Below, in pieces: positions 11,035 to 58,171 of a stretch of 64,000 nucleotides of DNA. Every line of letters starts with the position of its first letter. Positions within the stretch are counted from its first letter, which is position 1. The notes under the pieces are model-generated. The model was given only the letters and a program-made list of their open reading frames with translations. It was not told the origin of the DNA and ran no database searches. The stretch is from contig JAFLDS010000003.1 of assembly GCA_017302295.1 (NCBI GenBank), positions 62,001 through 126,000 of the forward strand, read 5' to 3'. The position numbers and the translations under genes are program-made. Source of the stretch: Thauera sp. GTDB lineage: Bacteria; Pseudomonadota; Gammaproteobacteria; Burkholderiales; Rhodocyclaceae.

Positions 11035-11052
11035 CATCGTCCGTTGAGACTA
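11035..11052 (-). promoter_or_regulatory. Shared operator-like element upstream of tesB
   Basis: On the minus strand it reads TAGTC-TCAAC-GGACGATG, a perfect match to the recurring T(A/C)GTC-N5-GGACGATG element, 61 bp before the tesB start. The core TMGTC...GACGA is a near inverted repeat, as expected for a dimeric regulator. Confidence 0.65.
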
Positions 11053-11090
11053 CGCACCCACGCCGCAGCAGGGCGCCTGCCAAGGCGCAG

Positions 11091-11121
11091 AAAAAAGCCG
11101 CCAACCCTCGCGGGTGGCGGC
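11091..11121 (-). terminator. Intrinsic terminator after the LuxE-like gene
   Basis: A GC-rich hairpin (GCCGCCaaCCC / GGGtGGCGGC) is followed on the minus strand by six T residues. It lies about 50 bp after the end of the 11170-18966 gene group and separates it from the tesB operon. Confidence 0.8.
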
Positions 11122-11169
11122 CATACGAAGCAGAGAACGAAACTGCGGCGCTGGGGATGCGCCGCGCGG

Positions 11170-12591
11170 CTAGCCCTGGGTCTGCTGCAACAGGTAATCG
11201 ATCGCCTTGTCGTGCGCCTCGGGGGCGCCCGCGCAGTTGATCTTGTCGTCGCCGCCCTGCTTCTCGCTGAAGCGGCCGATCGTCGAATGCAGGTAGGGGC
11301 CGTGGCGACCACAGGCACAAGGCTCGTCCCACCCGGACAGGGTGACCTCGTCGCCGGTGATCAGGCCGCCCCAGTAGCTGTCGGGCAGCAGATCCATCAG
11401 GCCGAAGCGTCCGGTGTGCCTGCCGCTGCGCGGCATGGGCGCGCCCGTATCGGGATCGAGCACGTAAGGCACCATCGTCGGCGGAATGTGGAAGTTGCCT
11501 TCGTCGCATCGCGGACAGCCGGCCATGATCTCGCTCATGCTGTAGTACTCGTAGTAGCGCGAGAAGCCGATGAAATCGAAGATCTGCTGCCGGTAGTTGT
11601 CCGGCAGCACCCGCCCCTTGCTGCCGCCGCCGGTGATCAGCACGCTGTTGGGGCCGAAGACCTTGCTCAGGCCGCGCGCGAGACCGGCCTCGGCCCATTC
11701 GAACAGGATCGGCCACACCGCGAAGAGGATCACGTCCTTGCCCGCGTAGCGTTCCACCGCGGCCTCGAAGAAGCGCCGCATCTGCTCGGGGCGGTCGCCC
11801 TCGCGCACCGCGAACTCCTCGCGGCGCGCCAGCAGCGCGGGCGAAAGCTGCAGCTTGCCCTGCTCGCCGCGCGACTCGGCCGCCTTCAGGCGCCCGGCGA
11901 GCGAGGCGACGTCGGCGCTGTAATAGGCGCCCGGGTAAAGAAAGAGCGCGTTGTCGTCGCCGCCCGCGTACATCCGCACCATGCGATCGACACCGCGGTG
12001 GGACGAACTCGCACCGTAGCGGTACGCCGGGATGACGAGCGGCATGTGATCCTTGAGCACGTCGGGCCCCGCGCCGGCACCATGCCAGTCGCGCAGGCTG
12101 TTCGCGGTGATGCGCACCGTGTCGTCCCACTGGCGGCGGGTACGCGGGATGAAGGACAGCTTGCCCGTAGTGCCCGAGGTATGCAGCAACTGGATCTCGG
12201 TGGTCTTCTCGATCAACGCGATCCAGTCGTCGATGGTGTGCACGTCGCTCGCATCGACACCGGACAGATCGGTGGTGGTCATGCCTGCCAGCCAGTGCGT
12301 GAGCCGGTCGAAACGGCTGCGCTCGAGCAGCGACAAGGGGTAGGACTTGTAGACCGTATGCGGAAACAGCAAGGGAACCGCATCGTCGACGTGGTTGATG
12401 TGCTCGATGCCCTGCTCCTTCGCCAGCGCATCGAGCACGGCAAGCCGCGGCCGCAGCTCGTTGAAGCGCTTTTGCAGGCCATGCAGGTGGATCTCGTCGA
12501 GCTCTTCGCGGCTGAGATTGAAGGCCTCGTCGTAGCGGGCCTCGACGAAGCTGGTGGGGTCGGCGCGCAGTTGCGCGGACAGTGAGGTCAT
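11170..12591 (-). CDS. LuxE-like acyl-protein synthetase (ANL superfamily)
   Basis: A 473-residue protein of the LuxE acyl-protein synthetase family, related to phenylacetate-CoA ligases. Seen are the ATP-binding LLHTSGTTGKLSFIPRT segment, GGGSKGR, EYYSMSEI and the adenylate-site TGDEVTLSGW; four C-terminal cysteines in CPRC and CACG may bind metal. In bioluminescence LuxE activates a fatty acid as acyl-AMP and passes it to LuxC for reduction. Here it follows a LuxC homologue with no luciferase. Start 12591 has GGAG 6 nt upstream; an ATG at 12597 is the alternative. It may activate a steroid carboxylate for reduction, which is inference. Confidence 0.78.
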   Translation of the reverse strand: MTSLSAQLRADPTSFVEARYDEAFNLSREELDEIHLHGLQKRFNELRPRLAVLDALAKEQGIEHINHVDDAVPLLFPHTVYKSYPLSLLERSRFDRLTHWLAGMTTTDLSGVDASDVHTIDDWIALIEKTTEIQLLHTSGTTGKLSFIPRTRRQWDDTVRITANSLRDWHGAGAGPDVLKDHMPLVIPAYRYGASSSHRGVDRMVRMYAGGDDNALFLYPGAYYSADVASLAGRLKAAESRGEQGKLQLSPALLARREEFAVREGDRPEQMRRFFEAAVERYAGKDVILFAVWPILFEWAEAGLARGLSKVFGPNSVLITGGGSKGRVLPDNYRQQIFDFIGFSRYYEYYSMSEIMAGCPRCDEGNFHIPPTMVPYVLDPDTGAPMPRSGRHTGRFGLMDLLPDSYWGGLITGDEVTLSGWDEPCACGRHGPYLHSTIGRFSEKQGGDDKINCAGAPEAHDKAIDYLLQQTQG

Positions 12592-12634
12592 GTTCATCTC
12601 CGGTGTTTCAGGGGTGTGGATGTCGCCTGGCGCT

Positions 12635-14125
12635 TCAGGCGGCGACCGCGGTAGCGTCAGATGCGAGCGCCAGGCCTTCGAGCAATTCGGCGCAGGCCGA
12701 TTCGTCGACGATCCACTTGCACATGCGGCGCACGGGCTCGATGCCGTCCTGCGGCGCGGCGGTGGCAAACAGGGTGGCGGCGCCGCCCAGCGAGACGAGA
12801 CGCTGCGCGCCCTGATAGGCCAGGCGATCGCGCAGGCGGTCCTTCAGCGACTCGGGAAAGAGACCGATGGTCTGGGTGTAGGAATTGACCGACAGCACGG
12901 CCTCGTCGAGCGCATCGATCGGCACGAGGTTGCAGACGCGCCCGGAGAGGAGGCGCGAGAAGTCGACCGGCGCATCGCTCTGCGAGACGATCACCGCGCC
13001 TTCGTTGTTGCGGCCGCCGAACATCTTGTATTCGTCGCCTGCAAAGCGCAGGCCGTCGAGCTCGGCCTTCAGCTCGGGATCGAAGGCCTTGTGCGGGGTG
13101 CTCAGGTGCGACGGCAGCTCCTGCAGCGCCTCGAAGGTGAGCTTGCCGAGCTTGTTGAGTCTTTCCAGCCCCTTCGCGTCGGTACCGGAAACCACATACA
13201 CGACGCGCGCGCACACGCAGCCTTCCTGGTTCATCGCACCGACGTCGAGCGCAAGGCGGCGGGCAACGTGGCGCAGCGTCGCCTCATCGGCGAACGCGTC
13301 GCTGTCGATGATGGTGGCGCTGTGCTTGGGGTCCAGGGTGATGAGGTCGATGCCGGGCTGGAGGTAGCGGGTGATGTGGCTGATGCTCGCGAAGCCGCCC
13401 CAGGCAATGATTTTTTCGATGCGCTTGGGGTGGTAGAGGATCTCCTCGACATTGGTGTCGCCGCCCTTCCAGTAGGCCACCGACAGGTGACGCGTCAGCG
13501 GATGGTCGGGCGCCATCTCGATCATCGTGCGCGCCATCGCGGCGGCGGTCAGCGGATCGTTGGAGGGCGTCTTGATGATCGCGTCGGAACGGGTAATGGC
13601 ATTGCGCAACACGGTCTGCGCCGCCACGCCGGGCGAGTTGCCGGCGATGACGTGCACCGCCCGCGCACCGAAAGCGCGCACCTTGACCGTGAGCGCCGGA
13701 TTGACCCTGGAGACCTGCGGCACCCAGCCCTCGAGGTAGTCGAGGCCGATGAAGTTCTCGGCCGACTCTCTGGCCACGTCAGCCCGGAAGAAGTGCGGGA
13801 TGTTCTCGTAGTGATTGCGCAGGATGCTGTCCGACAGCCCGGAGGTCAGACGCGACAGCTCGTAGGCTTCCTGCATGTGCGGGTTGGTGGCGAGGTTCAA
13901 GCGCTCGCTCAGGCGCCCGAGATACTCGGCGATATCGTCGAAGCTCAGCGAATACAGATCGGCCATCCGCGAAGGACGGTCGAGTGCCAACTGTTCGAGG
14001 TGCTTGCCCACATCGGGGGATGTGAACACGGCGCCGCCGCGACGCCCGCCAAACTCAACCGCTCCCTCATCGATCACCTCGCCGCGGATGATCAGCGGAA
14101 CACGCCAGATCTTTTTCATGCTCAT
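12635..14125 (-). CDS. LuxC-like acyl-CoA/acyl-protein reductase
   Basis: A 496-residue member of the LuxC acyl-CoA reductase family (aldehyde-dehydrogenase fold). Visible are the nucleotide-binding region around VIAGNSPGVAAQTVLRNAI, IIKTPSNDPLTAAAMA, the proposed acylated cysteine in MNQEGCVCARVVYV, and a KMFGGRNNEGAV segment. The family reduces acyl-CoA or acyl-LuxE to an aldehyde with NADPH. Forty-odd bases separate it from the LuxE homologue, so the two probably work as one acid-reductase. The substrate is unknown; a steroid side-chain acid is a reasonable guess from context. GAGGAG precedes the ATG at 14125. Confidence 0.82.
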   Translation of the reverse strand: MSMKKIWRVPLIIRGEVIDEGAVEFGGRRGGAVFTSPDVGKHLEQLALDRPSRMADLYSLSFDDIAEYLGRLSERLNLATNPHMQEAYELSRLTSGLSDSILRNHYENIPHFFRADVARESAENFIGLDYLEGWVPQVSRVNPALTVKVRAFGARAVHVIAGNSPGVAAQTVLRNAITRSDAIIKTPSNDPLTAAAMARTMIEMAPDHPLTRHLSVAYWKGGDTNVEEILYHPKRIEKIIAWGGFASISHITRYLQPGIDLITLDPKHSATIIDSDAFADEATLRHVARRLALDVGAMNQEGCVCARVVYVVSGTDAKGLERLNKLGKLTFEALQELPSHLSTPHKAFDPELKAELDGLRFAGDEYKMFGGRNNEGAVIVSQSDAPVDFSRLLSGRVCNLVPIDALDEAVLSVNSYTQTIGLFPESLKDRLRDRLAYQGAQRLVSLGGAATLFATAAPQDGIEPVRRMCKWIVDESACAELLEGLALASDATAVAA

Positions 14126-14315
14126 CGACTCCTCTGCCCTGTTGTGCGATCCGCCAAGGCCCCAAGCCGAATGCGAACCGGTTCATCGAGCCGCGACCCG
14201 TTAGGGTCTCGGCGTTGCAGGGTCGATTAGAGGCCAGCGTGCGGATGCTTTCATCACGCAGTTGCACTAAGCAGGGAGAATGAGAGAAGGGGATCGCCGC
14301 AGGGGTGGAGGAGAC

Positions 14316-15014
14316 TCAGCAGCGCCCCGACACGACGAGATGCGTGCCATGAATGTCACGCGCGGCGTCGGAGAGCAGAAACGCCAGGGTGCCCGCGAGG
14401 CTCTCACGGGAAACCCAGCGCGACGGGTCTGCATCCGGCATCGCTTGCCTGTTGGCAGGCGTGTCGATGATGCTGGGCGCCACACTGTTGACCCGAATAC
14501 CTTGCTCCCGGACCTCAGCCGAGAGCGATTCGACCAGCCGCTGCAGCGCGCTCTTGGCGGCACAATAGGCCGCCATGTGCGCCTCTCCCCGGGCGGCGGC
14601 ACGCGCGCTCACCGCAACAATCGCCCCGCCGCGCTCCCGCATGTGCGGCACCACCGCACGGCTCAGCGCGATGAACGACCACGCGTTGAGCGTCATCATG
14701 GCGTCCCAGGTCGCGCGCGAGAGCTCGCTGACCGCCTCACCCATGGTGAAGCCACCCGCCAGGTGAAGCACCCCATCGATCGCCCCACAGTGCATCACCG
14801 CCCGATCCACGAGCTGGCGCATCTCCACCTCGTCGCTCACATCGCCCTCGAGCATCAGATGGCGAGCGTCACCCACAAGCTCGGGGAATGCAGCCGCAGG
14901 CGACAGACGGTCCACAAGGATCAGGCGCGCATCGAGCGCATTCAGTTTCAGCACCACCTCTCGTCCGAGTGCCCCGGCGGCACCCGTGACGATGATGGTC
15001 TTTCCATCGAGCAT
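14316..15014 (-). CDS. Short-chain dehydrogenase
   Basis: A 232-residue SDR with GAAGALGREV, LHLAGG in place of the usual NNAG, Ser in VAVSARAAA and a YCAAK catalytic pair. Function within the LuxC/LuxE/COQ4-like group is unknown; it could act on the aldehyde/alcohol or a ring hydroxyl. About 190 bp without a gene separate it from the LuxC-like gene, so a separate transcript is possible, though I saw no terminator there. Confidence 0.82.
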   Translation of the reverse strand: MLDGKTIIVTGAAGALGREVVLKLNALDARLILVDRLSPAAAFPELVGDARHLMLEGDVSDEVEMRQLVDRAVMHCGAIDGVLHLAGGFTMGEAVSELSRATWDAMMTLNAWSFIALSRAVVPHMRERGGAIVAVSARAAARGEAHMAAYCAAKSALQRLVESLSAEVREQGIRVNSVAPSIIDTPANRQAMPDADPSRWVSRESLAGTLAFLLSDAARDIHGTHLVVSGRC

Positions 15015-15075
15015 TTCGTTTTCCTCATTTCAGGCGCAGGCAGACCGCCGAGGGCTCAGACAATCCGCCGATGGC

Positions 15076-15402
15076 TCAGGCAGACCGCGCGTAAAGCTGA
15101 TCGAGCTGACGCGCGCAGTTGAAATCGCGCTGCGACAGACCATTGCAGTCGTGGGTCGAGTACTCGACCCGGCAGCGGCCGTAGCTCACCAAGAGATCGG
15201 GATGGTGGTCTTCGGCATGCGCCACCCAGGCCACCGCATTGACGAAGGCCATCGTGCGATCGTAGTTGGCGAACGCGAACTCACGAATCAGGCGGTCACC
15301 CTCGCGGCGCCACGCGGGAACGCTCGCGAGTTCCCGCCCGATCTCGTCCTCGGTCAGTGCGACCACCGGCATCGCCGGGGCCGAACCGGTTTCCGAATTC
15401 AT
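15076..15402 (-). CDS. Pterin-4a-carbinolamine dehydratase-like protein (PCD/DCoH)
   Basis: A 108-residue protein with the PCD signature EDHHPDLLVSYGRCRVEYSTHD, carrying the His-His-Pro active-site motif and the later His/Asp. PCD normally recycles tetrahydrobiopterin for aromatic amino-acid hydroxylases. None is present here, so either it serves another pterin-like or unrelated dehydration or the fold has been recruited. GAGGAG lies about 9 nt before the ATG. It is tightly placed between the COQ4-like gene and an SDR. Confidence 0.85.
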   Translation of the reverse strand: MNSETGSAPAMPVVALTEDEIGRELASVPAWRREGDRLIREFAFANYDRTMAFVNAVAWVAHAEDHHPDLLVSYGRCRVEYSTHDCNGLSQRDFNCARQLDQLYARSA

Positions 15403-15446
15403 CTTCAGATACTCCTCAAGCTGTCTACGGGCATTTTCCAGCGCAA

Positions 15447-16271
15447 TCAGACCTGCTCCAGATAGATGGCCGTCTCCGCCGAGGTGTCGACGAAACGGGC
15501 ATCACGGATCCCCAGTCGTTCGCGCGCGGCGTCCAGCGGCAGATGCAGCGCGTCCTCGCACTTGAGCATGAAGATCGGCTCAGACGCACGCCCCACCGCG
15601 ATGCCCCGCTCCATCGCGTCGACAATGGCGGGCCAGGTCTGCGGGTAGTGCAGCATGCCGCGCGACATGATGCGCATCGCGCCGAGGATGTTGAAAACGG
15701 ACAGCTCGCCGGCCAGCTCGGGCGACAGGTACTTGAAGACGTTGACCAGGCGCGCGTAGTACGGCACCAGCTCGCCAATGAAATCGAGCCCGCCCCCGGT
15801 CAGGATGTGCTCGAAATCATGGGTTTGCCCGTTGCGCATCATGTAATAGTCGAGATGGCTTTTGGGCGGCTCGGGCAGCGGCGGCATGATCTCGATGCTG
15901 TAGCCCTTCTCGATCACTTCTCGATGGAAGGTCCCACCGAGCGTATCGGGCGCACAGGCTTGCACATCCTTCACGCTCAGCGATGACATGAAGCGTTCGG
16001 ACAGCCAGGCGTCGAGCTGCGGGTTGCGCTGCCGCTCCTGCTCGAACAGCGCATCGACGTGGTCACGGTCCTGGATCTCTTTCATGATCAGGTGCAGCTC
16101 GTAGGTGTCCGCAGTCGGCGGACGGTCGTGACCGCTGCGCCTGAGCATGTTGGTGGCGACCCAGTCGCGCAGCTTCGGGTTGTTGAGATACTTCGACGAG
16201 CTGACCAGCACGCTGCTGTCGGTGGTGACGTGGCGCAGGCCACGCATGAGGTAAGGCAGGGCGTCATCCAT
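15447..16271 (-). CDS. COQ4-family protein
   Basis: A 274-residue COQ4-like protein. The family's metal motif HDxxH-x11-E is intact in HDFEHILTGGGLDFIGE. COQ4 acts in ubiquinone biosynthesis, where it has been linked to C1 oxidative decarboxylation/hydroxylation of the ring. Here it sits in a catabolic operon rather than with ubi genes, which suggests a paralogue acting on another hydrophobic ring compound. The ATG at 16271 is used; GAGGAG lies about 10 nt upstream. The specific reaction is unknown. Confidence 0.82.
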   Translation of the reverse strand: MDDALPYLMRGLRHVTTDSSVLVSSSKYLNNPKLRDWVATNMLRRSGHDRPPTADTYELHLIMKEIQDRDHVDALFEQERQRNPQLDAWLSERFMSSLSVKDVQACAPDTLGGTFHREVIEKGYSIEIMPPLPEPPKSHLDYYMMRNGQTHDFEHILTGGGLDFIGELVPYYARLVNVFKYLSPELAGELSVFNILGAMRIMSRGMLHYPQTWPAIVDAMERGIAVGRASEPIFMLKCEDALHLPLDAARERLGIRDARFVDTSAETAIYLEQV

Positions 16272-16312
16272 GATTTGTTCGCTCCTCAAGAAGGACAATC
16301 AGCAGTGGGCTT

Positions 16313-18160
16313 TCAAAGCGCACCGGCGTAAGGTTCGGCGCGTTCGAAATCGAGCAGGCTGGGGGAGACGCGCTGCGCGAGCGTCGCGGGAATGCGTACC
16401 GGGAAGCACAGCAGCTGCTGCGCCTTGCCCTTGGCAACCGCGTCCAGGCGCGGCGAGCAGGTGATTCCACCCCCGAGTGCGTTGTGAATGACGAAGTTGA
16501 CCGCATCGAGCCCCGGCAGCAGGAAGCGCTCGACACGCTGGGCCTCGAGGTCATCGAACTCGTGTGCGAACCAGGCGGCCACGGCCTCGGGTGTCAATGC
16601 CGACAGGATGTAGGGCAGGAAATCGGGGTGACGAGCGATGACCCCGACGTTGAACAGGTTGCCCTTGTCGCCACTGCGTGCCCAAGCCAAGCCGATCAGC
16701 GGAACTTCGACCGCGCCGTCGCCCGCGTCCAGCGCCTCGATGCTCTGCGGACGGCGGATGTGCGCCTTGTCGAAGCCCCCATCGGTCGCGACCGCAGGAA
16801 TGCGCGAGACCCCGTTCACGGTGACCACCGGCGTGAGCTCGCGCTTGTCGATCAGGAACGAGAACAGGGCCTGCAGTGGCGTGACGACCATGCCGACATT
16901 GATCGATGTGCCGGGCGACATCGACACGATGCCGGAATACTGCTCGCGCATGAACATGTCGCAGGCCCGCTTGTCCTCGTGCTCGAGCACGATGCGGCAC
17001 AGCACCTCGCGGGTGTTCCGGTTGCGCGCACGCGCGCCCTGAGTGCATTCGGTCCCGAGCATCTCGGCATGGGTGCGCGACCAATCCTGCATGCCCTGTT
17101 CGCGCAGCATGCGCCCGGTCCGCTCGATGAGTGCAGCCGCCTGGCGCTCGCCCTTGGCCGCGGCCTCGAGGCCGGTAATGGGCTGGACGACGGCAACCCG
17201 CCAACCCTTGCGGAAGATGGTGCACACCTTGTAGGTCGAGGTCCGCGGCAGCCCGCGTGCGCCACTCACGCGCACACGGTCCGGCCCGACCTCCTCCAGC
17301 TGCACGCCGCTGAAGTCGCAGGTCACATCGGGCACGAAATAGCACTGCGGGTCGCTCGTCTCATACACGAGCTGCTCGGCCACGGTGCCGCGCGACACGA
17401 GGCCGCCGGTGCCCTCGGGTTTGGTCACGACGAAGCTGCCGTCGGCCGAACACTCGGCGATCGGATAACCGATGTCCGCCCAGCCGGGCACGCTGCGCCA
17501 GTCGGTGAAGGTGCCGCCGGTGACCTGGGCGCCGCATTCGAGCAGATGCCCTGCCAGCGTACCGGCCGCCAGCACGTCATAGTCCTCGGGGCGCCAGCCG
17601 AACTCGTGGATCAGTGGCCCCAGGGTCAGCGCGCTGTCGACCACCCGTCCGGTGATGACGACATCCGCGCCCGCAGCAAGTGCGTTGGCAATCGGAAAGG
17701 CACCCAGATAGGCGTTCATGCTGTCGATCGGCGCGTCCGGCAAGGTCGCGCCGGTAAACATGTCCTGCACCCCGGCCGCCCGAAATGCATCGACGCGCGG
17801 CATCAGATCGTCGCCATCCACCACGGCAATGCTCAGGCGCACCCCCTGCTGAGCGGCCACCTCACGCAAGGCCGCCGCACACCCGCGCGGATTGACGCCA
17901 CCGGCGTTGACCACCAGCTTCACGCCCTGGCGCGCGATCTCCTGCAGGTGGGGCGCGATGTGCACCGGGATGAAGTCCGGCGCGAACCCGGCCCTCGCCT
18001 GCGCGCTGGCGAACATCGCCAGCAGGCCCATCGAGCCCTCGGCCAGGTAATCGCCCACGAGATAATCGAGCTGCCCGTGTTCGAGCAGTTGCGGCACCGC
18101 GAGCGCGCTGTCCGACAGCGCCGCCGAGGCGCTGCCGATGCGCACGACCCGTTTTGACAT
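16313..18160 (-). CDS. AtuA-like acyclic terpene utilisation family protein (DUF1446)
   Basis: A 615-residue member of the AtuA/DUF1446 family. The N-terminal domain has RIGSASAALSDS, VVNAGGVNPRGCAAALREVA and GADVVITGRVVDSALTLGPL. A C-terminal region beginning at VPLIGLAWARSGDKGNLFNVGVIAR matches the smaller domain that often follows it. AtuA is required for citronellol/geraniol degradation in Pseudomonas but its reaction is undefined. Here it likely acts on an isoprenoid-like or steroid CoA ester. GAGGA precedes the ATG at 18160. Confidence 0.85.
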   Translation of the reverse strand: MSKRVVRIGSASAALSDSALAVPQLLEHGQLDYLVGDYLAEGSMGLLAMFASAQARAGFAPDFIPVHIAPHLQEIARQGVKLVVNAGGVNPRGCAAALREVAAQQGVRLSIAVVDGDDLMPRVDAFRAAGVQDMFTGATLPDAPIDSMNAYLGAFPIANALAAGADVVITGRVVDSALTLGPLIHEFGWRPEDYDVLAAGTLAGHLLECGAQVTGGTFTDWRSVPGWADIGYPIAECSADGSFVVTKPEGTGGLVSRGTVAEQLVYETSDPQCYFVPDVTCDFSGVQLEEVGPDRVRVSGARGLPRTSTYKVCTIFRKGWRVAVVQPITGLEAAAKGERQAAALIERTGRMLREQGMQDWSRTHAEMLGTECTQGARARNRNTREVLCRIVLEHEDKRACDMFMREQYSGIVSMSPGTSINVGMVVTPLQALFSFLIDKRELTPVVTVNGVSRIPAVATDGGFDKAHIRRPQSIEALDAGDGAVEVPLIGLAWARSGDKGNLFNVGVIARHPDFLPYILSALTPEAVAAWFAHEFDDLEAQRVERFLLPGLDAVNFVIHNALGGGITCSPRLDAVAKGKAQQLLCFPVRIPATLAQRVSPSLLDFERAEPYAGAL

Positions 18161-18216
18161 GTATTTATCCTCGTCTTGTTGCGCGTGGCGAGCACCCCAC
18201 CACGCCAGCCTGAAGC

Positions 18217-19071: not shown

Positions 19072-20277
19072 TCAGACCAGCGGCGCGACGCCGCTCAGCA
19101 GCACGCGCAGCAGCTCGGTCTGGCGTGTCACGCCCGTCTTGGCAAAAATGGCGCGGATCTGGCAGCGGGCAGTGTTTCGGCTGACGTTGAGGCGCTGGGC
19201 AGCCTCGTCCACCGTGCACCCTTCCATCAGATGCAAGGCCAGATTGGCCTCGGCAGGCGTCAGCCCGTAAAGGCGCTTGAGCTGCTCGTTCGAGGCCACG
19301 ACGCGCGCCTCGGGGTCGCGAATGATGACGAGGGCGGCAGGTCGCGAGGATGGCTCGGACCATTCGGTCGGGGGCGCAGCGCGCACCGCCACGCCCAGGC
19401 TCGGTCGCCCGGATGACCGGCTCACCGACATCCCGGCCACCACGCCCGGCCTGACCTTTCCACCGGGCGACACCACCTGCTCGATGAGCCTGCGCAACTC
19501 GTGGTTCTCGCCCGGGTAGGCGGCCGACAGACCACCATTGACGATCGACAGGCCATCGCGCTGCGCGAGAAGCTCGCTCGCAGCAGCATTCGTCTTGAGG
19601 ATGCGCCCATCCCTGTCGAGGAACACCGCGCCCACCGACAGCCGATCGAGCATGCCCGCGTAGAAGAAGCGCTCGACCTCGGCAATGTCGAAGCTCGCGC
19701 GCAGCTGCACCGCCGTCGCCAGGTGCGGCAGCAGGAGGTTGCAGATCGCACGCTCGCGCGCACCGAAACGCTCGCTGCCGTGCGGTCGCGAAACGCGCAG
19801 ACGGCAAGCGGGCTCCGCCCCCATGCCGATGTCGGCTGCCATGTGATAGCGGACGTCGAGCGGCGCGTGAAACTCCCGGTAGTAGGAACCCGCCAGCCAT
19901 TCATCGTCATCGACGAGGTCTTCCAGCGTGACCATGCGATTGCGCGGCAGGTTGACGAAGGGGTCGATCGCGCTCCAGTCGGTGTAGAAGCTGGCAGCCA
20001 GTGTCGGCTGGGCCTTCCCTGAAAACACTACCTGCAGCGGCTGGTCCGCCTGCGGGGCGCGCAGAATCAGGGTGACGTAGTTGGCGCCCAGCACCTCGCG
20101 CAGACGGTCGAGCAGGCGCGTCCACGGCACCGTCTCCTGGGTGCCGGAATACACCATGCCGACCAGAGAATCGAACGCCACAAAGCCGAGTTCGGAAAGC
20201 TCGAAGAGCTGGAGCCTGTCCGTTACCTCAGCCGCGATCGGAGGCATCCGCATCGACGAGATGGCCGCTGAGTTCAT
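19072..20277 (-). CDS. LuxR-family transcriptional regulator (TeiR-like)
   Basis: A 401-residue regulator with a long N-terminal sensory region and a C-terminal LuxR helix-turn-helix (LTPAEANLALHLMEGCTVDEAAQRLNVSRNTARCQIRAIF) at about residues 330-385. Size and layout resemble TeiR, the LuxR-type activator of testosterone genes in Comamonas; identity was not measured. It is the only regulator among the catabolic blocks and is divergent from the esterase/BVMO operon. GGAGAG lies before the ATG at 20277. A degenerate copy of the shared element lies upstream, suggesting autoregulation. Confidence 0.85.
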   Translation of the reverse strand: MNSAAISSMRMPPIAAEVTDRLQLFELSELGFVAFDSLVGMVYSGTQETVPWTRLLDRLREVLGANYVTLILRAPQADQPLQVVFSGKAQPTLAASFYTDWSAIDPFVNLPRNRMVTLEDLVDDDEWLAGSYYREFHAPLDVRYHMAADIGMGAEPACRLRVSRPHGSERFGARERAICNLLLPHLATAVQLRASFDIAEVERFFYAGMLDRLSVGAVFLDRDGRILKTNAAASELLAQRDGLSIVNGGLSAAYPGENHELRRLIEQVVSPGGKVRPGVVAGMSVSRSSGRPSLGVAVRAAPPTEWSEPSSRPAALVIIRDPEARVVASNEQLKRLYGLTPAEANLALHLMEGCTVDEAAQRLNVSRNTARCQIRAIFAKTGVTRQTELLRVLLSGVAPLV

Positions 20278-20388: not shown

Positions 20389-20406
20389 CATCACCAGTTT
20401 GGACTA
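20389..20406 (-). promoter_or_regulatory. Degenerate shared element upstream of the LuxR-type gene
   Basis: On the minus strand it reads TAGTC-CAAAC-TGGTGATG: the first half is perfect and the second half differs at three positions. It lies about 110 bp before the regulator start. Confidence 0.4.
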
Positions 20407-25881: not shown

Positions 25882-25886
25882 GCTCG

Positions 25887-27098: not shown

Positions 27099-27173
27099 GC
27101 TCCCTTACCTCGCTGATGCGGGCCCTGCCCGCCCTGTAGTGGGTACAAAGATGCCACAGGCCGCACGGCCGAC

Positions 27174-27191
27174 AATCGTTCAAATCGACTA
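27174..27191 (-). promoter_or_regulatory. Degenerate shared element upstream of the aldolase operon
   Basis: The minus strand reads TAGTC-GATTT-GAACGATT (two mismatches in the second half), 75 bp before the aldolase start. Confidence 0.5.
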
Positions 27192-27207
27192 GGCGGAGCG
27201 GAGGACA

Positions 27208-27225
27208 CCATCCGGACGGACGATT
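27208..27225 (+). promoter_or_regulatory. Degenerate shared element upstream of the PQQ dehydrogenase
   Basis: The plus strand reads CCATC-CGGAC-GGACGATT, 75 bp before the PQQ dehydrogenase start and a mirror image in position to the element at 27174. Confidence 0.45.
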
Positions 27226-27300
27226 CGGCCCGCACCCAGTCGTCCGATGATCCGCGGGTCATCCCCACCACGTGGGCCGTCGCGCCCGAAGGAGTCCGAT

Positions 27301-29509: not shown

Positions 29510-29713
29510 TCAGTTCATCGCCAGCATCGCAAAGAAGCGTCCGGTCGAAGCGTTGGTGGTGGAATTCATGTTGTGACACTGGATCTCGCCCGCGCCGCAG
29601 GCCGGAGCCTGCACCAGGGAATCGAGCACGCGGGAATGGCCGTGATCGAGGATGACTGCAAACGCTGCAAGCCATCCAAACACGCACCCGCACAGCAAGG
29701 CCTTGGTAAGCAT
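29510..29713 (-). CDS. Small secreted or membrane-anchored protein, function unknown
   Basis: A 67-residue ORF. The N-terminus looks like a signal peptide or single membrane helix (about residues 4-22). The rest is polar with two cysteines in ACGAGEIQCHN and a final hydrophobic turn. I do not recognise the family. In favour of reality: GGGGGAGAAG lies 4-8 nt before the ATG, a perfect copy of the shared operator lies 144 bp upstream, and a terminator ends the previous gene in between. It could be a small redox or periplasmic partner of the PQQ dehydrogenase encoded opposite. Confidence 0.5.
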   Translation of the reverse strand: MLTKALLCGCVFGWLAAFAVILDHGHSRVLDSLVQAPACGAGEIQCHNMNSTTNASTGRFFAMLAMN

Positions 29714-29856
29714 GTACTTCTCCCCCGCAATTCACAGTCTGGCGTGCGCCCTGCACGCTGCCTGCAGGAACAAGGCACGACGCCGCTTCACTGCGACTGC
29801 CGCCCGAGTGTCTCCTCCTGCACGCTGCGCAGATTGCCGAAGGCGGGCAAGCACGA

Positions 29857-29874
29857 CATCGTCCAAATGGACTA
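29857..29874 (-). promoter_or_regulatory. Shared operator-like element upstream of the small ORF
   Basis: The minus strand reads TAGTC-CATTT-GGACGATG, a perfect match. It lies between the ligase terminator and the small ORF, so it can only serve the small ORF or a transcript towards the right. Confidence 0.6.
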
Positions 29875-33306: not shown

Positions 33307-33324
33307 CATCGTCCACTAAGACTA
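33307..33324 (-). promoter_or_regulatory. Shared operator-like element upstream of the SDR-ligase operon
   Basis: The minus strand reads TAGTC-TTAGT-GGACGATG (perfect match), 94 bp before the SDR start. Confidence 0.65.
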
Positions 33325-33365: not shown

Positions 33366-33383
33366 TCGTCTGAACGGACGATG
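33366..33383 (+). promoter_or_regulatory. Shared operator-like element upstream of the MFS-TesD operon
   Basis: The plus strand reads TCGTC-TGAAC-GGACGATG (perfect match), 88 bp before the MFS start. Two elements face away from each other in this divergent promoter region. An extra GGACGATA half-site lies at 33402-33409. Confidence 0.65.
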
Positions 33384-44722: not shown

Positions 44723-44729
44723 CACGCGG

Positions 44730-45530: not shown

Positions 45531-45534
45531 TGCT

Positions 45535-46701: not shown

Positions 46702-46714
46702 GACCTGCTACTCC

Positions 46715-47929: not shown

Positions 47930-47948
47930 GTGTTATTCCTGTGCGGGT

Positions 47949-49115: not shown

Positions 49116-49132
49116 CGTCCGTTCTCCTTCGC

Positions 49133-50311: not shown

Positions 50312-50330
50312 GTGTTCGGTTCTCCGCAGG

Positions 50331-50750: not shown

Positions 50751-51855
50751 ATTTCCATCCCAGCGTGTCGTTGTTGGCGAGCCAGTCGCCGAGTCGTTCG
50801 AGCGTGGCGGCGCTGCCGCCCAGGGTGATGCCGAGCGCGCGGCTCCAGTAAAGGTAGCGGTGGATCGGGTAGGTCAGATCGACGCCGATGCCGCCATGCA
50901 CGTGCTGCGCCTTGTGGCCGACGAGGTGACCGCATTCGTTGGCGAGGTACTTGACCGCCAGCGCCTCGGACGGCGACGGCAGGCCGGCGTCGAGCCGGTA
51001 CACCAGCTGCCACAGCGCCGAGCGCAGCGCCTCGATGGCGATGTGGGCGTCGGCCATGCTCATCTGCACCGCCTGGAAGGTGGCGATGGCGCGGTCGAAC
51101 TGGCGGCGGTCGTTGATGTAAGCGACCGTGCGACGCACCTGCTCGCTGCTCACGCCCAGCTGCAGCGCAGCCAGTGCGGCGATTGCGCGCTGCTCCAGCC
51201 AGGGCAGCGCAGCCTCGGGCAGCACCGCGTCCGCGGCCAGGCGGTGGGCGTTGAAGCTCAGGTCGGCGACCGCCTCGCAGTGGGTGAACACCCCGGCAAC
51301 CTTGTCGATGCCGGCTTCGCGCAGGTTCACCGACACCAGCCGGGGGCCGTCGTCGGTGTCGGCCAGCAGCAAGGCACGGCACACCTCGGCGCCCAGTGCC
51401 ACTGCGGCAACCTTGCCGTCCAGCACCCAGCCGTCACCCTCGCGGCGCGCCTTGAGCGCGACGCCGTGGGCACGCGCTGCCGCACCGAGCGACAGCGTGA
51501 TCATCAGTTTGCTTTCGGCGGCGTCGGCGGCGATCGCGGCACCGGTCCCACCACCGAAGCGCGCCAGCGTTGCAGCGCCAAGCTGGTGGCGCCACAACGG
51601 CACATTGCCGAGGCCGCGCCCCTGGGCTTCGAGCACCAGCATCAGCTCGGTCATGCCGAGGCCGCTACCGCCCGCTTCTTCGGGGATGGCCAGCGCATGC
51701 AGGCCGGTCTCGACGCACTGCTTCCACAGGTCGGCCATGAAGGGCTCGCCCGCGGTGTCGAAGGCGCGCAGGCGGTCGTCCGTGCACAAGTCGCCGAACA
51801 GGCTGCCCGCCATGTCGGCGATGGCGCGCTGATCGTCAGTCAGTTGGAAATCCAT
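50722..51855 (-). CDS. Acyl-CoA dehydrogenase, ChsE1/FadE28-like
   Basis: A 377-residue acyl-CoA dehydrogenase. The N-terminal helix is MDFQLTDDQRAIADMAG and the catalytic-end helix is HVHGGIGVDLTYPIHRYLYW. The FAD segment is degenerate (LSLGAAARAHGVALKAR), as in ChsE1-type subunits. The ATG at 51855 begins the helix; an upstream start at 51876 is less likely. It sits between chsH2 and chsH1. Confidence 0.87.
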   Translation of the reverse strand: MDFQLTDDQRAIADMAGSLFGDLCTDDRLRAFDTAGEPFMADLWKQCVETGLHALAIPEEAGGSGLGMTELMLVLEAQGRGLGNVPLWRHQLGAATLARFGGGTGAAIAADAAESKLMITLSLGAAARAHGVALKARREGDGWVLDGKVAAVALGAEVCRALLLADTDDGPRLVSVNLREAGIDKVAGVFTHCEAVADLSFNAHRLAADAVLPEAALPWLEQRAIAALAALQLGVSSEQVRRTVAYINDRRQFDRAIATFQAVQMSMADAHIAIEALRSALWQLVYRLDAGLPSPSEALAVKYLANECGHLVGHKAQHVHGGIGVDLTYPIHRYLYWSRALGITLGGSAATLERLGDWLANNDTLGWKYDLEEQQAL

Positions 51856-51865
51856 ACTCGTCTCC

Positions 51866-52843
51866 TCAGGCAGCAACCGGGCGGAACATCGGCAGGGTCA
51901 GTTCACCATCATCGAAGGACTGGAACTCGACCTGCACGCGCTGGCCGATCTCGATCTCATCGCGCTTCACGCCGACCAGGCCGGCAACCAGCCGAACGCC
52001 CTCGTCGAGTTCGATGAGGCCGATCGGATTCGGGTGTTCGAAGGGCGGCACCTCGGGGTAGTGCATCACCACGAACGAATAGATGCTGCCCTTGCCCGAC
52101 GCCTCGACCGAATCCCAGTCAAAGGAATGGCACTTGATGCAGACCGGCGCCGGCGGATGGCGCAGCGTGCTGCAGCAAGTGCAGCGCTGGATCAGCAGCT
52201 TGCCGGCCTCGACGCCTTCCCAGAAAAAGCGCGTGTCATCGCTGATGCCCGGCTTGGGACGCTTGAACTTGGGCACCGCCGGGGCCGCGCCCTTCTCGAC
52301 GGGCTTGGGCACGTTGGCGGGGCGGAACTTGAAGACGCGGAACAGCAGCTGGCCGACCCGCTCGTCGCCGCCGGCCTTCTGGGAGAGGAAGGTCATGATC
52401 AGCGTGACGAAGTAGCCGGTGCCGAGCCCGGTGGTCTTCTCTTCGCCCACCGCATCGAGCCGCGTCGTGTAGTAGAGCTTCTCGCCCAGCTTCACGTAGC
52501 GGTCGAAGTGCAGGTCGGAGTTCACCGCCACTACCGACGGGAAGCCGTGCGCCTCGAGGGTCTTCAGCACCTCGTAGGGGTTCTCATCCGTCGAACCCGG
52601 CGCGTAGTTGTTCATGTGCAGGCCTTCGAGGCACCAGGCCTGCAGCATCGCCGGCGGCGCTACGATGCCGCCGAATTCGGTGGTGGCGGCATAGGCCGCA
52701 TCAAGGTAGAGCGGGTTGTCCACGCCCATCACCTCGCACCACTGCCGGATCATCGGCGCGTTAACCTCGTCCCAGGCGTAGACGCGACCGTACTCGCGAC
52801 CCACCTTGGCACGCACTTCGGACATCCATTCCTGTTCAGCCAA
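51866..52843 (-). CDS. chsH2: MaoC-DUF35 fusion, ChsH2-like
   Basis: A 325-residue protein. Residues 1-170 are a MaoC-type hot-dog domain without the catalytic Asp/His (GVDNPLYLDAAYA). Residues about 205-325 are DUF35 with C-x2-C-x10-C-x2-C (CTCCSTLRHPPAPVCIKC) and an OB-fold. In the known system this subunit complements ChsH1 and docks Ltp2 through DUF35. It is the first gene of the nine-gene operon. Confidence 0.9.
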   Translation of the reverse strand: MAEQEWMSEVRAKVGREYGRVYAWDEVNAPMIRQWCEVMGVDNPLYLDAAYAATTEFGGIVAPPAMLQAWCLEGLHMNNYAPGSTDENPYEVLKTLEAHGFPSVVAVNSDLHFDRYVKLGEKLYYTTRLDAVGEEKTTGLGTGYFVTLIMTFLSQKAGGDERVGQLLFRVFKFRPANVPKPVEKGAAPAVPKFKRPKPGISDDTRFFWEGVEAGKLLIQRCTCCSTLRHPPAPVCIKCHSFDWDSVEASGKGSIYSFVVMHYPEVPPFEHPNPIGLIELDEGVRLVAGLVGVKRDEIEIGQRVQVEFQSFDDGELTLPMFRPVAA

Positions 52844-52992: not shown

Positions 52993-53010
52993 TCGTCTGA
53001 ACGGACGATG
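52993..53010. promoter_or_regulatory. Shared operator-like element in the ChsH2/MFS intergenic region
   Basis: The plus strand reads TCGTC-TGAAC-GGACGATG (perfect match). The core TCGTC-N6-GACGA is a true inverted repeat, so orientation is ambiguous. It lies 149 bp from chsH2 and 149 bp from the MFS start. Confidence 0.65.
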
Positions 53011-53059: not shown

Positions 53060-53077
53060 TAGTCCCATCGGACGATG
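53060..53077 (+). promoter_or_regulatory. Shared operator-like element upstream of the MFS gene
   Basis: TAGTC-CCATC-GGACGATG on the plus strand, perfect match, 82 bp before the MFS start. The gene-free stretch 52844-53159 holds this and the element at 52993 and nothing else that I recognise. Confidence 0.65.
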
Positions 53078-53159: not shown

Positions 53160-54740
53160 ATGGATTCACCCACCAACACACGCTCAGCCTGGGCGGTGTA
53201 TGCCGCGCTGCTGTTCGGCACCTTCATCACCATCGAGGCCGCTGCCTTCCAGGCGCCGGCACTGCCCAGCGTGACGCGCCACTTCGGCATCCAGGTCAAC
53301 ATGTCGGCGCTGGTACTGATCCTGTATTCGCTGGCGCTGACCGTGTTCGCACCGATCATGGGCCGGCTGGGCGATCAACACGGACGCAAGCGGTTGATCA
53401 CGATCGGCATGATGGTGTTCGCGGTATCGGAGTTCGCCGCCGCCTGGGCGCCCAGCTTCGAGTTCTTCCTCGGCGCGCGCTTCGTGCAGGGCCTCGGCGC
53501 GGCCTGCATCCTGCCCGGCGTGTTCGCCTACGCCGCCCATCTGTTTCCGGAGAACAGGCGCGGCATGGCGCTGGGCATCCTCGCCTTCACGATGACCTTC
53601 GGCGCCGCCTCGGGCGGCCTGCTCGGCGGCCTGCTGATCGACCGCCTGGGCTGGCCCAGCGTGTACTGGATCAGCGGCGCCCTGACCCTGATCGGCCTGG
53701 TGTCGGTACGGCTGCTGGTGCCGGAGATCGCTCCGGCGAAGCAGCAGACCACCTTCGACTACACCGGCGCGATGCTGCTGTTCGTGGTGATCGCCGCCCT
53801 GCTCTCGCTACCCACCTGGGCATCCCAGTTCGGCAAGGAGTCGCCCATCACCTGGGCGATCGTGATCGTGGGCGTGGGCGCGCTGGTGGTGCTGTGGCGG
53901 CACAGCAAGCGCACGCCAAACCCGGTGATCGACCTTGGCATCCTCTCGCGTGGCGCCTTCGCCACGCCTTCGGCGATCTACTGGCTGCACATGATCTTCT
54001 CCAGCGGCATCGTCTATTCGCTGGCCTTCTTCATCAACAGCCGACCGGGCGGCTCGGCGGCGCAATTCGGCTTCGTCACCCTGTTCCTCTATGGCAGCGG
54101 CCTCGTCAGCTCGCCGATCGCCGGCAGGCTGGTCGACCGCATCGAACCGCGCGTGCTGGTCATCGTCGCCCTGCTCGCCAGCCTGGGCGGCACCCTGCTC
54201 TTCCTCAACATCGATGTCACCACGCCGCTGTGGATGGTGATCGCAGTGGGCTGCATCATGGGCCTCTCGATCGGCTGCAACACCCCGGCGATCATGAAGC
54301 TGGCGCTGGGCGCGGTGCCGGCCAGGAGCATGGGTGCCGGCAGCGGGCTGTTCAGCATGTTCCGCGACCTCGGCAATCCCACGGGTTCATCGCTGTCGCT
54401 GGCGGTGTTCGGCGCCAGCCTGGCCTACGCCACGCAGGCCGCAATCAACCGCCAGACCGCCGCGCTCGGCCTCGATGCGGCGAGCCTGGAGGCGCTGGCG
54501 CGCGCCGCCGGCAGCCGGGCGCGCGAAGTGCCGGCGGACGTCGCCGCGCGACTGGGGGAACATGGCTTGTCCGCCGATGCCGTGCTCACCGACGCAAACG
54601 TCGCCGGCCTGAACGCCGCCCTCACCAACGTGGGCTACATGCTGCTCGGCCTCATCGTGCTGGCACTCGTGCTGAGCCTGCGGCTCGCGCGCACGCGCGC
54701 TCACGCAGTGGCAGGAGAAGCGCGGGCACCTGCGGGCTGA
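53160..54740 (+). CDS. MFS transporter, DHA2-like 14-helix type
   Basis: A 526-residue transporter closely similar to that at 23143-24711 over its whole length: FGTFITIEAAAFQAPALPSV, motif A GRLGDQHGRKRLIT, and a shared MFRDLGNPTGSSLSLAVFG segment. The ATG at 53160 has GGAG 7 nt upstream. It is divergent from the side-chain operon and so probably serves a steroid substrate or intermediate. Confidence 0.9.
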   Translation: MDSPTNTRSAWAVYAALLFGTFITIEAAAFQAPALPSVTRHFGIQVNMSALVLILYSLALTVFAPIMGRLGDQHGRKRLITIGMMVFAVSEFAAAWAPSFEFFLGARFVQGLGAACILPGVFAYAAHLFPENRRGMALGILAFTMTFGAASGGLLGGLLIDRLGWPSVYWISGALTLIGLVSVRLLVPEIAPAKQQTTFDYTGAMLLFVVIAALLSLPTWASQFGKESPITWAIVIVGVGALVVLWRHSKRTPNPVIDLGILSRGAFATPSAIYWLHMIFSSGIVYSLAFFINSRPGGSAAQFGFVTLFLYGSGLVSSPIAGRLVDRIEPRVLVIVALLASLGGTLLFLNIDVTTPLWMVIAVGCIMGLSIGCNTPAIMKLALGAVPARSMGAGSGLFSMFRDLGNPTGSSLSLAVFGASLAYATQAAINRQTAALGLDAASLEALARAAGSRAREVPADVAARLGEHGLSADAVLTDANVAGLNAALTNVGYMLLGLIVLALVLSLRLARTRAHAVAGEARAPAG

Positions 54741-56243: not shown

Positions 56244-56311
56244 TTTTCGGCTCCTCGAACACGATGTCTGGATGGTAGAAAGGCGGCCAGCGAGGCGGAA
56301 GACGCACGGTT

Positions 56312-56346: not shown

Positions 56347-56368
56347 GATGCCGTGCTATGGTGCGCGC

Positions 56369-57265
56369 ATGTCAAGGCCCGATTTCAACCTGCTCCTCAC
56401 GCTGGATGTGCTGCTGGCCGAAGGCAACGTGGCACGCGCGGCCGAGCGCCTGCGGCTCAGCCCCTCGGCCATGAGCCGCGCGCTGGCGCGCCTGCGCGAG
56501 ACGACCGGCGATCCACTGCTGGTCCGTGCGGGACGCGGGCTCGTGCCCACGCCGCGCGCGCTGGAACTGCGGGAGAAGGTGAGCGAGCTGGTGCAGGACG
56601 TGGAGGCCGCGCTGCGTCCGGCGGAGACCCCCGATCTGGCGACGCTCGAACGCAGCTTCACCCTGCGCACCGGGGAAGGCTTCGTCGAGAACTTCGGCCC
56701 GTCGCTGCTGGCCCGCGTGGCCGAGGCGGCGCCGGGCATCCGCCTCGGCTTCGTGCCCAAGCTCGACCGCGACAGCAGCGCGCTGCGCGACGGCACGGTC
56801 GATCTGGAAACCGGCGTCCTCGGCAGCGGCATGGGCCCCGAGATTCGTGTGCAGGCGCTGTTCCGCGACCGCTTCATCGGCGTGGTGCGCGCCGGACACC
56901 CGCTCTGCGGCGCGGAGATCACCCCTTCCTCATTCGCCGCGGGGCGGCATATCGGCCTGTCGCGGCGCGGCCTGCCGCACGGCCCGGTCGACGAGGCGCT
57001 GGCTCTCCTGGGTCTGCAGCGCAACGTCGTCACCACCGTCGGCGGCTTTTCGACTGCCGTGGCGTTGGCGCGGGCCTCGGACTTGATCGCCAGCGTACCC
57101 GAGCGCCATACCGGAAACCTGCGCAACGGCATGTACTCGTTTGTTCTGCCCTTTCCAGCTCCCGAGATCACCGTGTCGCTGTTCTGGCACCCGAGACTTC
57201 ACGGGGACCCGGTGCATCGCTGGCTTCGGGGGGTGATATTGGATGTCTGTGGCCCCCCTGAGTAA
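56369..57265 (+). CDS. LysR-family transcriptional regulator
   Basis: A 298-residue LysR regulator. The N-terminal winged helix-turn-helix is LTLDVLLAEGNVARAAERLRLSPSAMSRALARLRETTGDPLLVRAGRGLVPTPRA, followed by a periplasmic-binding-like effector domain. The ATG at 56369 is preferred over a GTG at 56324 because it begins the family domain. It most likely controls the divergent efflux gene. Confidence 0.92.
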   Translation: MSRPDFNLLLTLDVLLAEGNVARAAERLRLSPSAMSRALARLRETTGDPLLVRAGRGLVPTPRALELREKVSELVQDVEAALRPAETPDLATLERSFTLRTGEGFVENFGPSLLARVAEAAPGIRLGFVPKLDRDSSALRDGTVDLETGVLGSGMGPEIRVQALFRDRFIGVVRAGHPLCGAEITPSSFAAGRHIGLSRRGLPHGPVDEALALLGLQRNVVTTVGGFSTAVALARASDLIASVPERHTGNLRNGMYSFVLPFPAPEITVSLFWHPRLHGDPVHRWLRGVILDVCGPPE

Positions 57266-57292
57266 GTCCAGTTGATTGTGTGCGCCGCCCGG

Positions 57293-58096
57293 TCAGTGCT
57301 GATCGCCGGTATTTGCCGCGGCGAGGAAGGCCGGGCGTTCGCCGCCGCCATGCAGCAGCAGGTTGGTGCCGGCGAAGTAAGCCGCCATCGGCGAGCCGGC
57401 GTAGAGACAGGCGTTGGCAATGTCGTCCGGCGTGGCCATGCGGCCGGCCGGGATGGTGGCGCCGACGGCGGCGATGCCGGCTTCGTCGCCATAGTGCAGG
57501 TGGGACTGCTCGGTCTGCACCAGGCCCGGGCTGATCGTGAGCACGCGCACCTTGGGCGCCCACTCCACCGCGAGCGACGACGCCAGCGACAGCACACCGG
57601 CCTTGGCTGCGCCATAGGCGGCGGTGCCCGGCGAGGGGCGCGAGGCGGCGACGCTGCCGATGAAGATGATGACCCCGCCTTCGGCTTGCTGCTGCATCAG
57701 CGCGTTGGCCTGCTGGGCGACGTTGAGCGGTGCGATCAGGTTGAGGCGGATGATGCCCTCGTGAAAGCGCGGCGAGGCCGTGTCGGCAAGCGCGAAGGGC
57801 GCACCGCCGGCGTTGTTGACCAGCACGTCGAGGCGGCCGAAGCGCTCGCGGATGGCGGCGAACAGGGCCTGCAGCGACTCGATGTCGCGCACGTCGGCGG
57901 GAATGAAGTTGGCCGTGTTGCCGGCGGCCTCGGGCAGCGCCTCGGGTGCGTTGCGGCCGCACACGACCACCGTCGCGCCCGCAGCCAGGAAACTGCAGGC
58001 GATTCCGGCACCGATGCCCTTGGTGCCGCCGGTCACGAGCACAACCTTGCCGCGGTAGTCGAGCGCTGCGGCGCAAGTCATAGCCTGATTGTTCAT
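57293..58096 (-). CDS. Short-chain dehydrogenase
   Basis: A 267-residue SDR: GGTKGIGAGIACSF, NNAGGAPFA, FIGSVAASRPS, YGAAK and LTISPGLVQTEQ. The C-terminus ends in a short Ala-rich tail. It is divergent from an enoyl-CoA hydratase with one perfect shared operator between them. It may be a hydroxyacyl-CoA or hydroxysteroid dehydrogenase; an IpdF-like role cannot be excluded. Confidence 0.86.
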   Translation of the reverse strand: MNNQAMTCAAALDYRGKVVLVTGGTKGIGAGIACSFLAAGATVVVCGRNAPEALPEAAGNTANFIPADVRDIESLQALFAAIRERFGRLDVLVNNAGGAPFALADTASPRFHEGIIRLNLIAPLNVAQQANALMQQQAEGGVIIFIGSVAASRPSPGTAAYGAAKAGVLSLASSLAVEWAPKVRVLTISPGLVQTEQSHLHYGDEAGIAAVGATIPAGRMATPDDIANACLYAGSPMAAYFAGTNLLLHGGGERPAFLAAANTGDQH

Positions 58097-58153
58097 GCAT
58101 TTCTCCAAGATGGTCGATGCCTGCGAGTCTAGGTGCGCCTCCCGCCCCGTTCG

Positions 58154-58171
58154 TCGTCTGAATGGACGATG
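58154..58171. promoter_or_regulatory. Shared operator-like element between SDR and enoyl-CoA hydratase
   Basis: The plus strand reads TCGTC-TGAAT-GGACGATG, a perfect match with inverted-repeat core TCGTC-N6-GACGA. It is 57 bp from the SDR start and 97 bp from the hydratase start, so it may serve both. Confidence 0.65.

Follow-up and report, generated by a model that had tools for sequence, protein, structure and literature searches.

A palindromic element before steroid-degradation operons of Thauera sp.: a predicted operator with class II activator geometry and a LuxR-type candidate regulator

Introduction

What controls the steroid-degradation operons of a Thauera genome, and can that control be read from the DNA? 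We analysed 64,000 nucleotides of Thauera sp. (the window), positions 62001-126000 of the 233-kb contig C23 (GenBank JAFLDS010000003.1) in a genome of 4.11 Mb and 53 contigs. A sequence-only reading of the window had proposed that nearly all its steroid operons are marked by an 18-bp palindromic element, TMGTC-N5-GGACGATG, and that a LuxR-type protein encoded nearby is the best local candidate for its regulator. Our analysis points to a real, steroid-specific operator with the predicted geometry of an activator site. We put at about 0.8 the probability that it is the operator of LuxR-A, a TesR/TeiR-like LuxR-type activator that would control the steroid-degradation operons.

Exact copies are confined to one steroid island

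All seven perfect copies listed by the sequence-only reading were present and exact. When up to two mismatches were allowed, the window held 25 matches; 100 shuffled sequences averaged 3.6 and never exceeded 11. The whole genome contained 12 exact matches to TMGTC-N5-GGACGATG, 11 of them on C23. With the symmetric Y/R pair beside the spacer included, the refined palindrome TMGTCY-N4-RGACGA(TG), that is TMGTCYNNNNRGACGATG, also had 12 exact copies in the genome, and every one lay on C23 between 31,364 and 130,732, in a single 100-kb steroid island. Frequent occurrence in unrelated DNA, which the earlier reading had named as grounds for abandoning its proposal, was therefore not seen for the exact copies. 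The genome scan at two mismatches returned 409 matches versus 256 for a backwards control. A loose match by itself therefore carries little weight, and such matches were not used as evidence.

None of the bases under the 12 exact copies was coding in our own gene call of C23. A matrix scan of the contig gave 34 non-coding matches before the first coding one, at rank 35, with a matrix trained partly on the same sites and with palindromes counted on both strands. The intergenic placement claimed for the element thus extends to all 12 exact copies and to the top 34 matrix matches. We also observed that low-scoring, foreign-looking genes break up the steroid island at window positions 39064-42631, where there were no exact operator copies.

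Genes are numbered (g) after the same gene call, and operon extents are taken from gene order. On the fitting strand, exact copies precede the SDR genes g23 and g30, the acyl-CoA-dehydrogenase-like g32, a DUF1329 gene followed by a DUF1302 gene (g36/g35), the HsaC/TesB-like dioxygenase gene g62, the divergent SDR/MFS pair g79/g80, the g96 operon, the MFS gene g97, the divergent SDR/enoyl-CoA hydratase pair g100/g101 and the flavin reductase gene g109. Conserved copies with one mismatch or weaker precede g106/g107, g38/g39, g46 and g75/g76, as well as g22 in 7 of 11 genomes; the site of g106/g107, where g107 encodes a FAD-binding protein, was identical letter for letter in 10/10. Thus most steroid operons do carry the element. 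"Nearly all" was too broad, as the acyl-CoA-reductase/AtuA/SDR block at 11170-18966 is unmarked, with no matrix match scoring above 8 ahead of it. The four degenerate copies of the sequence-only reading fared unevenly: the one at 27174 is well kept, those at 20389 and 27206 (there 27208) are weak, and at 20452 no match was found even at three mismatches.

The sites lie at a fixed distance from a -10-like hexamer

We scored a -10 matrix (Escherichia coli values) at each distance from 0 to 59 nt from the 18-mer. In all 11 orthologous forward promoter groups the best -10-like hexamer began 18-21 nt after the 18-mer, and the mean score across these groups reached 1.5 at 20 nt, while none of the other distances rose above -2.5. 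On the reverse side, four of eight groups peaked at 22-23 nt (g24, TAAAAT/TACAAT; g96; g96_far, weakly; and g100, TAGACT in 10/10). Measured from the 16-bp palindrome, the hexamer is about 22 nt away on both sides.

Placing the hexamer at -12 to -7 puts the palindrome at -50 to -35, centred on -42.5, and the TG of the 18-mer at -34/-33. A dyad near -42.5 with fixed -10 spacing, as in class II promoters, was accordingly found in 11/11 forward and 4/8 reverse groups. A centre near -42.5 is typical for LuxR-type class II activators, which bind the lux box, and is unusual for a repressor. The sites are thus best described as a predicted promoter architecture with class II activator geometry, and between divergent genes some of the palindromic copies suit the promoters on either side. 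The symmetric 16-bp palindrome and the confinement of its exact copies to the island agree with the earlier proposal of a steroid-specific operator for a dimeric regulator.

Conservation within the genus

We counted the motif in 25 same-genus genomes, our own included, among 41 genomes searched in all. Eleven of the 25 held 4-15 exact copies and the other 14 held 0-3; the backwards control matched nothing in any of the 41. Island stretches were then taken from the 10 other motif-rich genomes, six of them covered in part only. Of the 138 exact copies in the 11 rich genomes, these stretches and C23 together held 134. A single one of the 134 overlapped a C23-homologous frame, via a 28% cross-match. 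The start of a C23 homolog lay on at least one side of 117 copies. The remaining 17 comprised nine before a small protein gene, seven before a gene outside the C23 calls and one (G008:C1:2274792) without an assigned gene, genes absent from C23 not being called in the relatives. Copies of the operator, TCGTCCRATCGGACGATG, before a gene without a C23 counterpart occurred in the islands of G003, G005, G006, G008, G013, G017 and G018 (for example, G005:C1:2279231), so either the regulon has members that our own genome lacks or a gene call was missed.

Orthologs in four or more genomes were available for 79 C23 genes. Their mean best upstream matrix score separated the gene starts into two classes, a high one of 24 (12.5-30.0) and a low one, and three genes fell between them (7.0-10.7). 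The units here are gene starts and not sites, because divergent genes share sites. In relatives, the paralog g97 is the probable source of the high scores of g73 (window 23143-24711); leaving g73 out makes the high class 23/79.

LuxR-A is the regulator that follows the sites

We recognised five regulators in the C23 island: two LuxR-type, two LysR-type and one TetR-type (g13 by N-terminal sequence only). LuxR-A, of 379 amino acids, is encoded at contig positions 32394-33533, 28 kb before the window, among steroid genes. Its C-terminal GerE helix-turn-helix scored above the curated cut-off (E = 1.5e-6). Outside that domain there was no Pfam match up to E = 1, and thus no acyl-homoserine-lactone domain was found.

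LuxR-A was present at 84% identity or more in exactly the 11 motif-rich genomes. The search covered 29 genus genomes, four of them outside the motif count, and the other 18 had matches of 30% or less over the length, helix-turn-helix-only matches or none. Within the sampled island stretches of the 11 rich genomes, which is where the two LysR genes were compared, LuxR-A occurred in 11/11 and was the sole one of the five regulators to do so. TetR g20 occurred in four, LysR g99 in four as a close match and in one at 30%, and LysR g13 in one, while LuxR-B, the paralog of LuxR-A, was found in four at 68% or more and in three at 55-57%, the rest being 40% cross-matches to LuxR-A.

LuxR-B is the protein that the sequence-only reading had singled out. 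The family it chose is most likely right and the protein itself is unlikely. We regard it as improbable that LuxR-B is what mainly binds the sites, or that LuxR-A and its paralogs bind them together, even though LuxR-B belongs to the same larger clade, shares 19 of 28 residues of the DNA-binding segment and has a weak operator copy before its own gene, and regulators of similar divergence in Cupriavidus, Caballeronia and Burkholderia adjoin the same sites. Its near orthologs (68-73%) are patchy, with only three other genomes holding one and five holding 55-56% relatives (one genome has both), and none was found in G006, G016 or G021, where there are 13, 4 and 12 motif copies. The copy upstream of LuxR-B is not conserved (mean score 3.9).

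In the protein tree, LuxR-A groups with LuxR-A2 and the homologs of Vibrio, G121 and G273 (support 99/98), and LuxR-B with its sister set groups with Burkholderia, Cupriavidus and Caballeronia proteins (support 97/96). The DNA-binding segment (28 residues, 339-366) was identical in all 11 LuxR-A proteins and in the Vibrio, G121a and G273 homologs, whose N-terminal parts share only 40-50% with LuxR-A. The segment thus recurs unchanged in two further families and on a Vibrio plasmid, there too with the sites ahead of homologs of the corresponding genes. Elsewhere it retained 26-27 residues (LuxR-A2), 25 (G121b), 22 (Sphingobium TomTYG64) or 19 (LuxR-B, 68%). LuxR-A2 itself (58-60% to LuxR-A) was seen at G003:C3:153371-154495, G017:C1:1836069-1837181 and G012:C70:194780-195901. 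In all three genomes a site lies 104-126 bp before its own start, which suggests autoregulation.

A TetR-type repressor like KstR, whose repression a steroid metabolite would lift and which could be encoded, for instance, by the TetR gene at contig 27119-27727, would be a natural alternative, since a gene of that family lies within the island and short palindromes suit TetR dimers. We consider it very unlikely. Only three of the 10 other motif-rich genomes had close orthologs (66-81%) of the TetR protein, whereas 27 of 29 genus members, with or without the motif, had 53-61% relatives. A contig search with the protein gave distant relatives only. A site near -42.5, upstream of the -10, suits activation more than blocking, and the KstR2 motif published in PMC3068626, in the passages available, is a different sequence.

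The same element beside LuxR-A homologs in other lineages

We searched 399 genomes of the order for LuxR-A and for the motif. Homologs of LuxR-A at 45% or more were confined to our own genome, G121, G273 and G313. At least one exact motif copy, the background level, was present in 155 of the 399. Six or more occurred only in our own genome (G000, 12), G121 (9) and G273 (six strand matches at five places), and all three hold LuxR-A or a 48-50% homolog. In a class-wide search of 369 genomes, covering the protein and not the motif, G000 and G121 alone matched LuxR-A at E <= 1e-50. The G313 LuxR is close to that of Burkholderia arboris (branches of 0.057 each), and with G313 in the same order as the window this makes Burkholderiales, taken broadly, the probable order.

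A 174-kb plasmid of Vibrio alfacsensis (NZ_CP140104.1; G+C 41-47%) encodes a 56% LuxR-A homolog and carries exact 16-mers at five places, where 0.13 strand matches would be expected; they precede homologs of g36, g77, g100/g101, g27 and g62. We noted on this plasmid (L216, L221-L224) a large steroid-degradation-like gene set beside an XrtA/PEP-CTERM exopolysaccharide region. Exact 16-mers were also found on plasmids at four places in 41 kb of Caballeronia SBC2, at two in Cupriavidus and at one in Burkholderia arboris. Over seven lineages outside the genus, 29 of 33 strand-sites (29 places) lay within 350 bp before a C23 gene homolog, versus none of 13 background sites. The Burkholderia, Caballeronia and Cupriavidus loci in this comparison were picked around the regulator and are cluster-biased, the Vibrio set is plasmid-wide, and G121, G273 and G313 were covered genome-wide. 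The promoter of the dioxygenase gene g62 had a site in six of the seven.

Duplication of a promoter-like or repeat element, with no dedicated regulator, would account for copies that are highly alike and take in the -35 position. We find this scarcely credible, given that the sites hold their places ahead of orthologous genes in several families and on the Vibrio plasmid, that flanks look unlike between promoters (by eye) and that 14 same-genus genomes have only 0-3 copies.

In Sphingobium TomTYG64, a site lies 57 bp before a 3-ketosteroid-9-alpha-monooxygenase (kshA-like) gene. TomTYG65 and TomTYG72 have their exact sites within annotated genes, and these sites were excluded as support. In TomTYG65 (L225: 25311, 27662, 27707) we observed three intergenic palindromes with one mismatch, TAGTCC-N4-GGACTA and a close variant, which are possibly the alpha-proteobacterial version of the operator.

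Proposed mechanism and its weighing

The analysis shows the sites, their exclusivity, their -10 spacing, their conservation gene by gene and their co-occurrence with LuxR-A; binding and activation by LuxR-A, and the nature of its inducer, we infer. Next to RNA polymerase, a LuxR-A dimer would occupy the 16-bp palindrome TCGTCY-N4-RGACGA (or TAGTC...), whose centre lies near -42.5. The conserved TG that extends the palindrome to the 18-mer would sit where a -35 element would be. A steroid or steroid metabolite, sensed by the N-terminal region of LuxR-A, would then switch on the steroid-degradation operons, and the paralogs LuxR-B and LuxR-A2 may share or modulate the sites.

Several observations weigh against LuxR-A as the dedicated regulator. 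Its own gene has no upstream site (mean score 1.4). Four of the eight reverse groups (g33, g79, g80 and g108) lack a -10 at the expected distance, and outside the genus the -10 spacing was found in only 16 of 33 strand-sites (2 of 13 in the background). Burkholderia, Cupriavidus, Caballeronia and G313 carry the sites although their regulators share only 20-21 of 28 residues (71-75%) of the binding segment with LuxR-A, so identity of the segment is not required there and a paralog such as LuxR-B could bind. G313 has only three copies, fewer than G083 and G283 (five each), which have no LuxR-A match. In Sphingobium, only one of three loci had an intergenic exact site.

We lean towards the view that one horizontally mobile module, made up of the LuxR-family regulator and the 16-bp operator, controls aerobic steroid degradation in beta- and gamma-proteobacteria and possibly alpha-proteobacteria, the last on the basis of the Sphingobium kshA promoter and the TAGTCC-N4-GGACTA variants. 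If so, regulator, sites and -10 spacing would have travelled in company with the catabolic genes. A predicted operator paired with a candidate regulator would make steroid regulons readable from sequence in many genomes, help to place gene products without an assigned role (for example, the 67-aa protein below) in the pathway and offer promoters for steroid biosensors.

Features of the window

Table 1. Operator copies and associated features, in window positions; -10-like hexamers are given with their distance from the 18-mer.
Feature	Position	Strand	Remarks
Operator copy	11035..11052	-	Exact; 62 bp before extradiol dioxygenase gene (hsaC/tesB-like, 10071-10973; product an HsaC/BphC-family match below curated cut-offs); in 10/10 orthologous promoters; downstream operon 1173-10973 inferred from gene order
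-10-like hexamer CACAAT	11009..11014	-	20 nt after the 18-mer of the 11035 site, 10/10
LuxR-B, LuxR-type regulator with PAS-like stretch	19072..20277	-	Paralog of LuxR-A
Weak degenerate copy	20389..20406	-	3 mismatches; 112 bp before LuxR-B; poorly kept in relatives
Degenerate operator copy	27174..27191	-	Precedes thiolase-like gene 25887-27098; in 10 orthologous promoters (own included) TAGTCGATTTGAACGATT/G in 8, TAGTCGATATGAACGATT in 1, absent in 1
Second, weaker degenerate copy	27206..27223		2-3 mismatches; shares intergenic region with 27174
67-aa conserved small protein gene	29510..29713	-	Downstream of 29857 site
Conserved 60-nt hairpin-like leader	29763..29822	-	Between 29857 site and small protein gene
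Operator copy	29857..29874	-	Exact; precedes small protein gene; aligned in 9 genomes
Operator copy	33307..33324	-	Exact; serves SDR gene 32478-33212, probably also 31825-32466 and acyl-CoA ligase 29929-31776; AAAACT at 20 nt in 7/10, variants in 3
Operator copy	33366..33383	+	Exact; serves MFS transporter 33472-34818 and genes after it; GACGAT at 20 nt in 8/10
Palindromic operator copy	52993..53010		Exact 18-mer on +, reverse 18-mer with 1 mismatch; best read as serving reverse-strand operon 43307-52825; reverse side TTAGAC (7) or TAGACT (3) at 22 nt, 10 genomes
Operator copy	53060..53077	+	Exact; serves MFS transporter 53160-54740; GACCAT (7) or GAACAT (2) at 20 nt, 9/9
Palindromic operator copy	58154..58171		Exact; suits both SDR 57293-58096 (-) and enoyl-CoA hydratase 58269-59072 (+); forward GAACAT at 20 nt in 8/10, reverse TAGACT at 22 nt in 10/10

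The site at 29857 stands before a small hydrophobic protein that aligned in nine genomes, with an open frame printed or called in eight, and had no Pfam match. The leader (TGCAGGAGGAGACA...TTCCTGC) begins about 35 nt after the 18-mer in 9/9 genomes, which would fit transcription starting close by. Its covariation was no better than in shuffles (95.2% of cells paired, only one pair changed on both sides), and an Rfam scan found nothing in the leader and only sub-threshold microRNA matches elsewhere in the stretch. We rejected an orphan site, or one before an RNA gene, as the alignment shows the small protein gene behind the leader.

Comparison with known systems

TeiR/TesR of Comamonas testosteroni is a LuxR-type positive regulator within a steroid megacluster and is needed for induction of most identified steroid genes; it is also described as a polar membrane protein with kinase activity (accessible parts of PMC6678751, PMC8700777 and PMC13101464). 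TesR/TeiR or LuxR genes in such clusters are likewise named in passages of PMC12239570 and PMC10637631. The portions available of these five papers give no operator for TesR/TeiR, and in our search for a steroid LuxR operator, which took in listings, abstract openings and passages, with subscription papers mostly outside it, this sequence did not come up. Pseudomonas stutzeri Chol1 has two TeiR-like genes, and deletion of one delays cholate degradation (unpublished there); the same source, in the part seen, calls the regulatory mechanisms largely unknown (PMC8399759). LuxR-A resembles TeiR/TesR, by description, in being LuxR-type with a GerE helix-turn-helix and encoded in a steroid megacluster. 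Within the literature covered, a steroid regulon under one LuxR-type activator is already known; what appears new is the operator, along with its breadth and horizontal travel.

KstR and KstR2 of actinobacteria are similar in that one regulator serves several steroid operons through palindromic operators, also at divergent promoters. They differ in being TetR-type repressors with 14-bp operators, and the KstR2 motif, AnCAAGnnCTTGnT in the available text of PMC3068626, bears out the earlier statement that the Thauera element is distinct from it. Steroid promoters of the window lacked AnCAAGnnCTTGnT. Its sole exact window match (29694-29707) is inside the frame 29510-29713 and is probably due to chance, although the three matches at up to one mismatch (one exact and two others) compare with 0.68 expected and were reached by 2 of 100 shuffles. 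The consensus form of the KstR operator had no matches, and a conserved TetR regulator in the cluster, as with KstR/KstR2, was not found, the tested TetR being present in the stretches of 4 of 11 rich genomes.

EdcR of Caenibius tardaugens, an oestrogen repressor, also has a palindrome in two promoters of a steroid cluster, but its TnnCnnTACnAnTnGTAnnGnnA overlaps the -10 box (PMC8700777, in part). LuxR/GerE class II activators share with LuxR-A the C-terminal GerE domain and a dyad site near -42.5 over the -35 region, as at the lux box; they differ in that no acyl-homoserine-lactone domain was found in LuxR-A.

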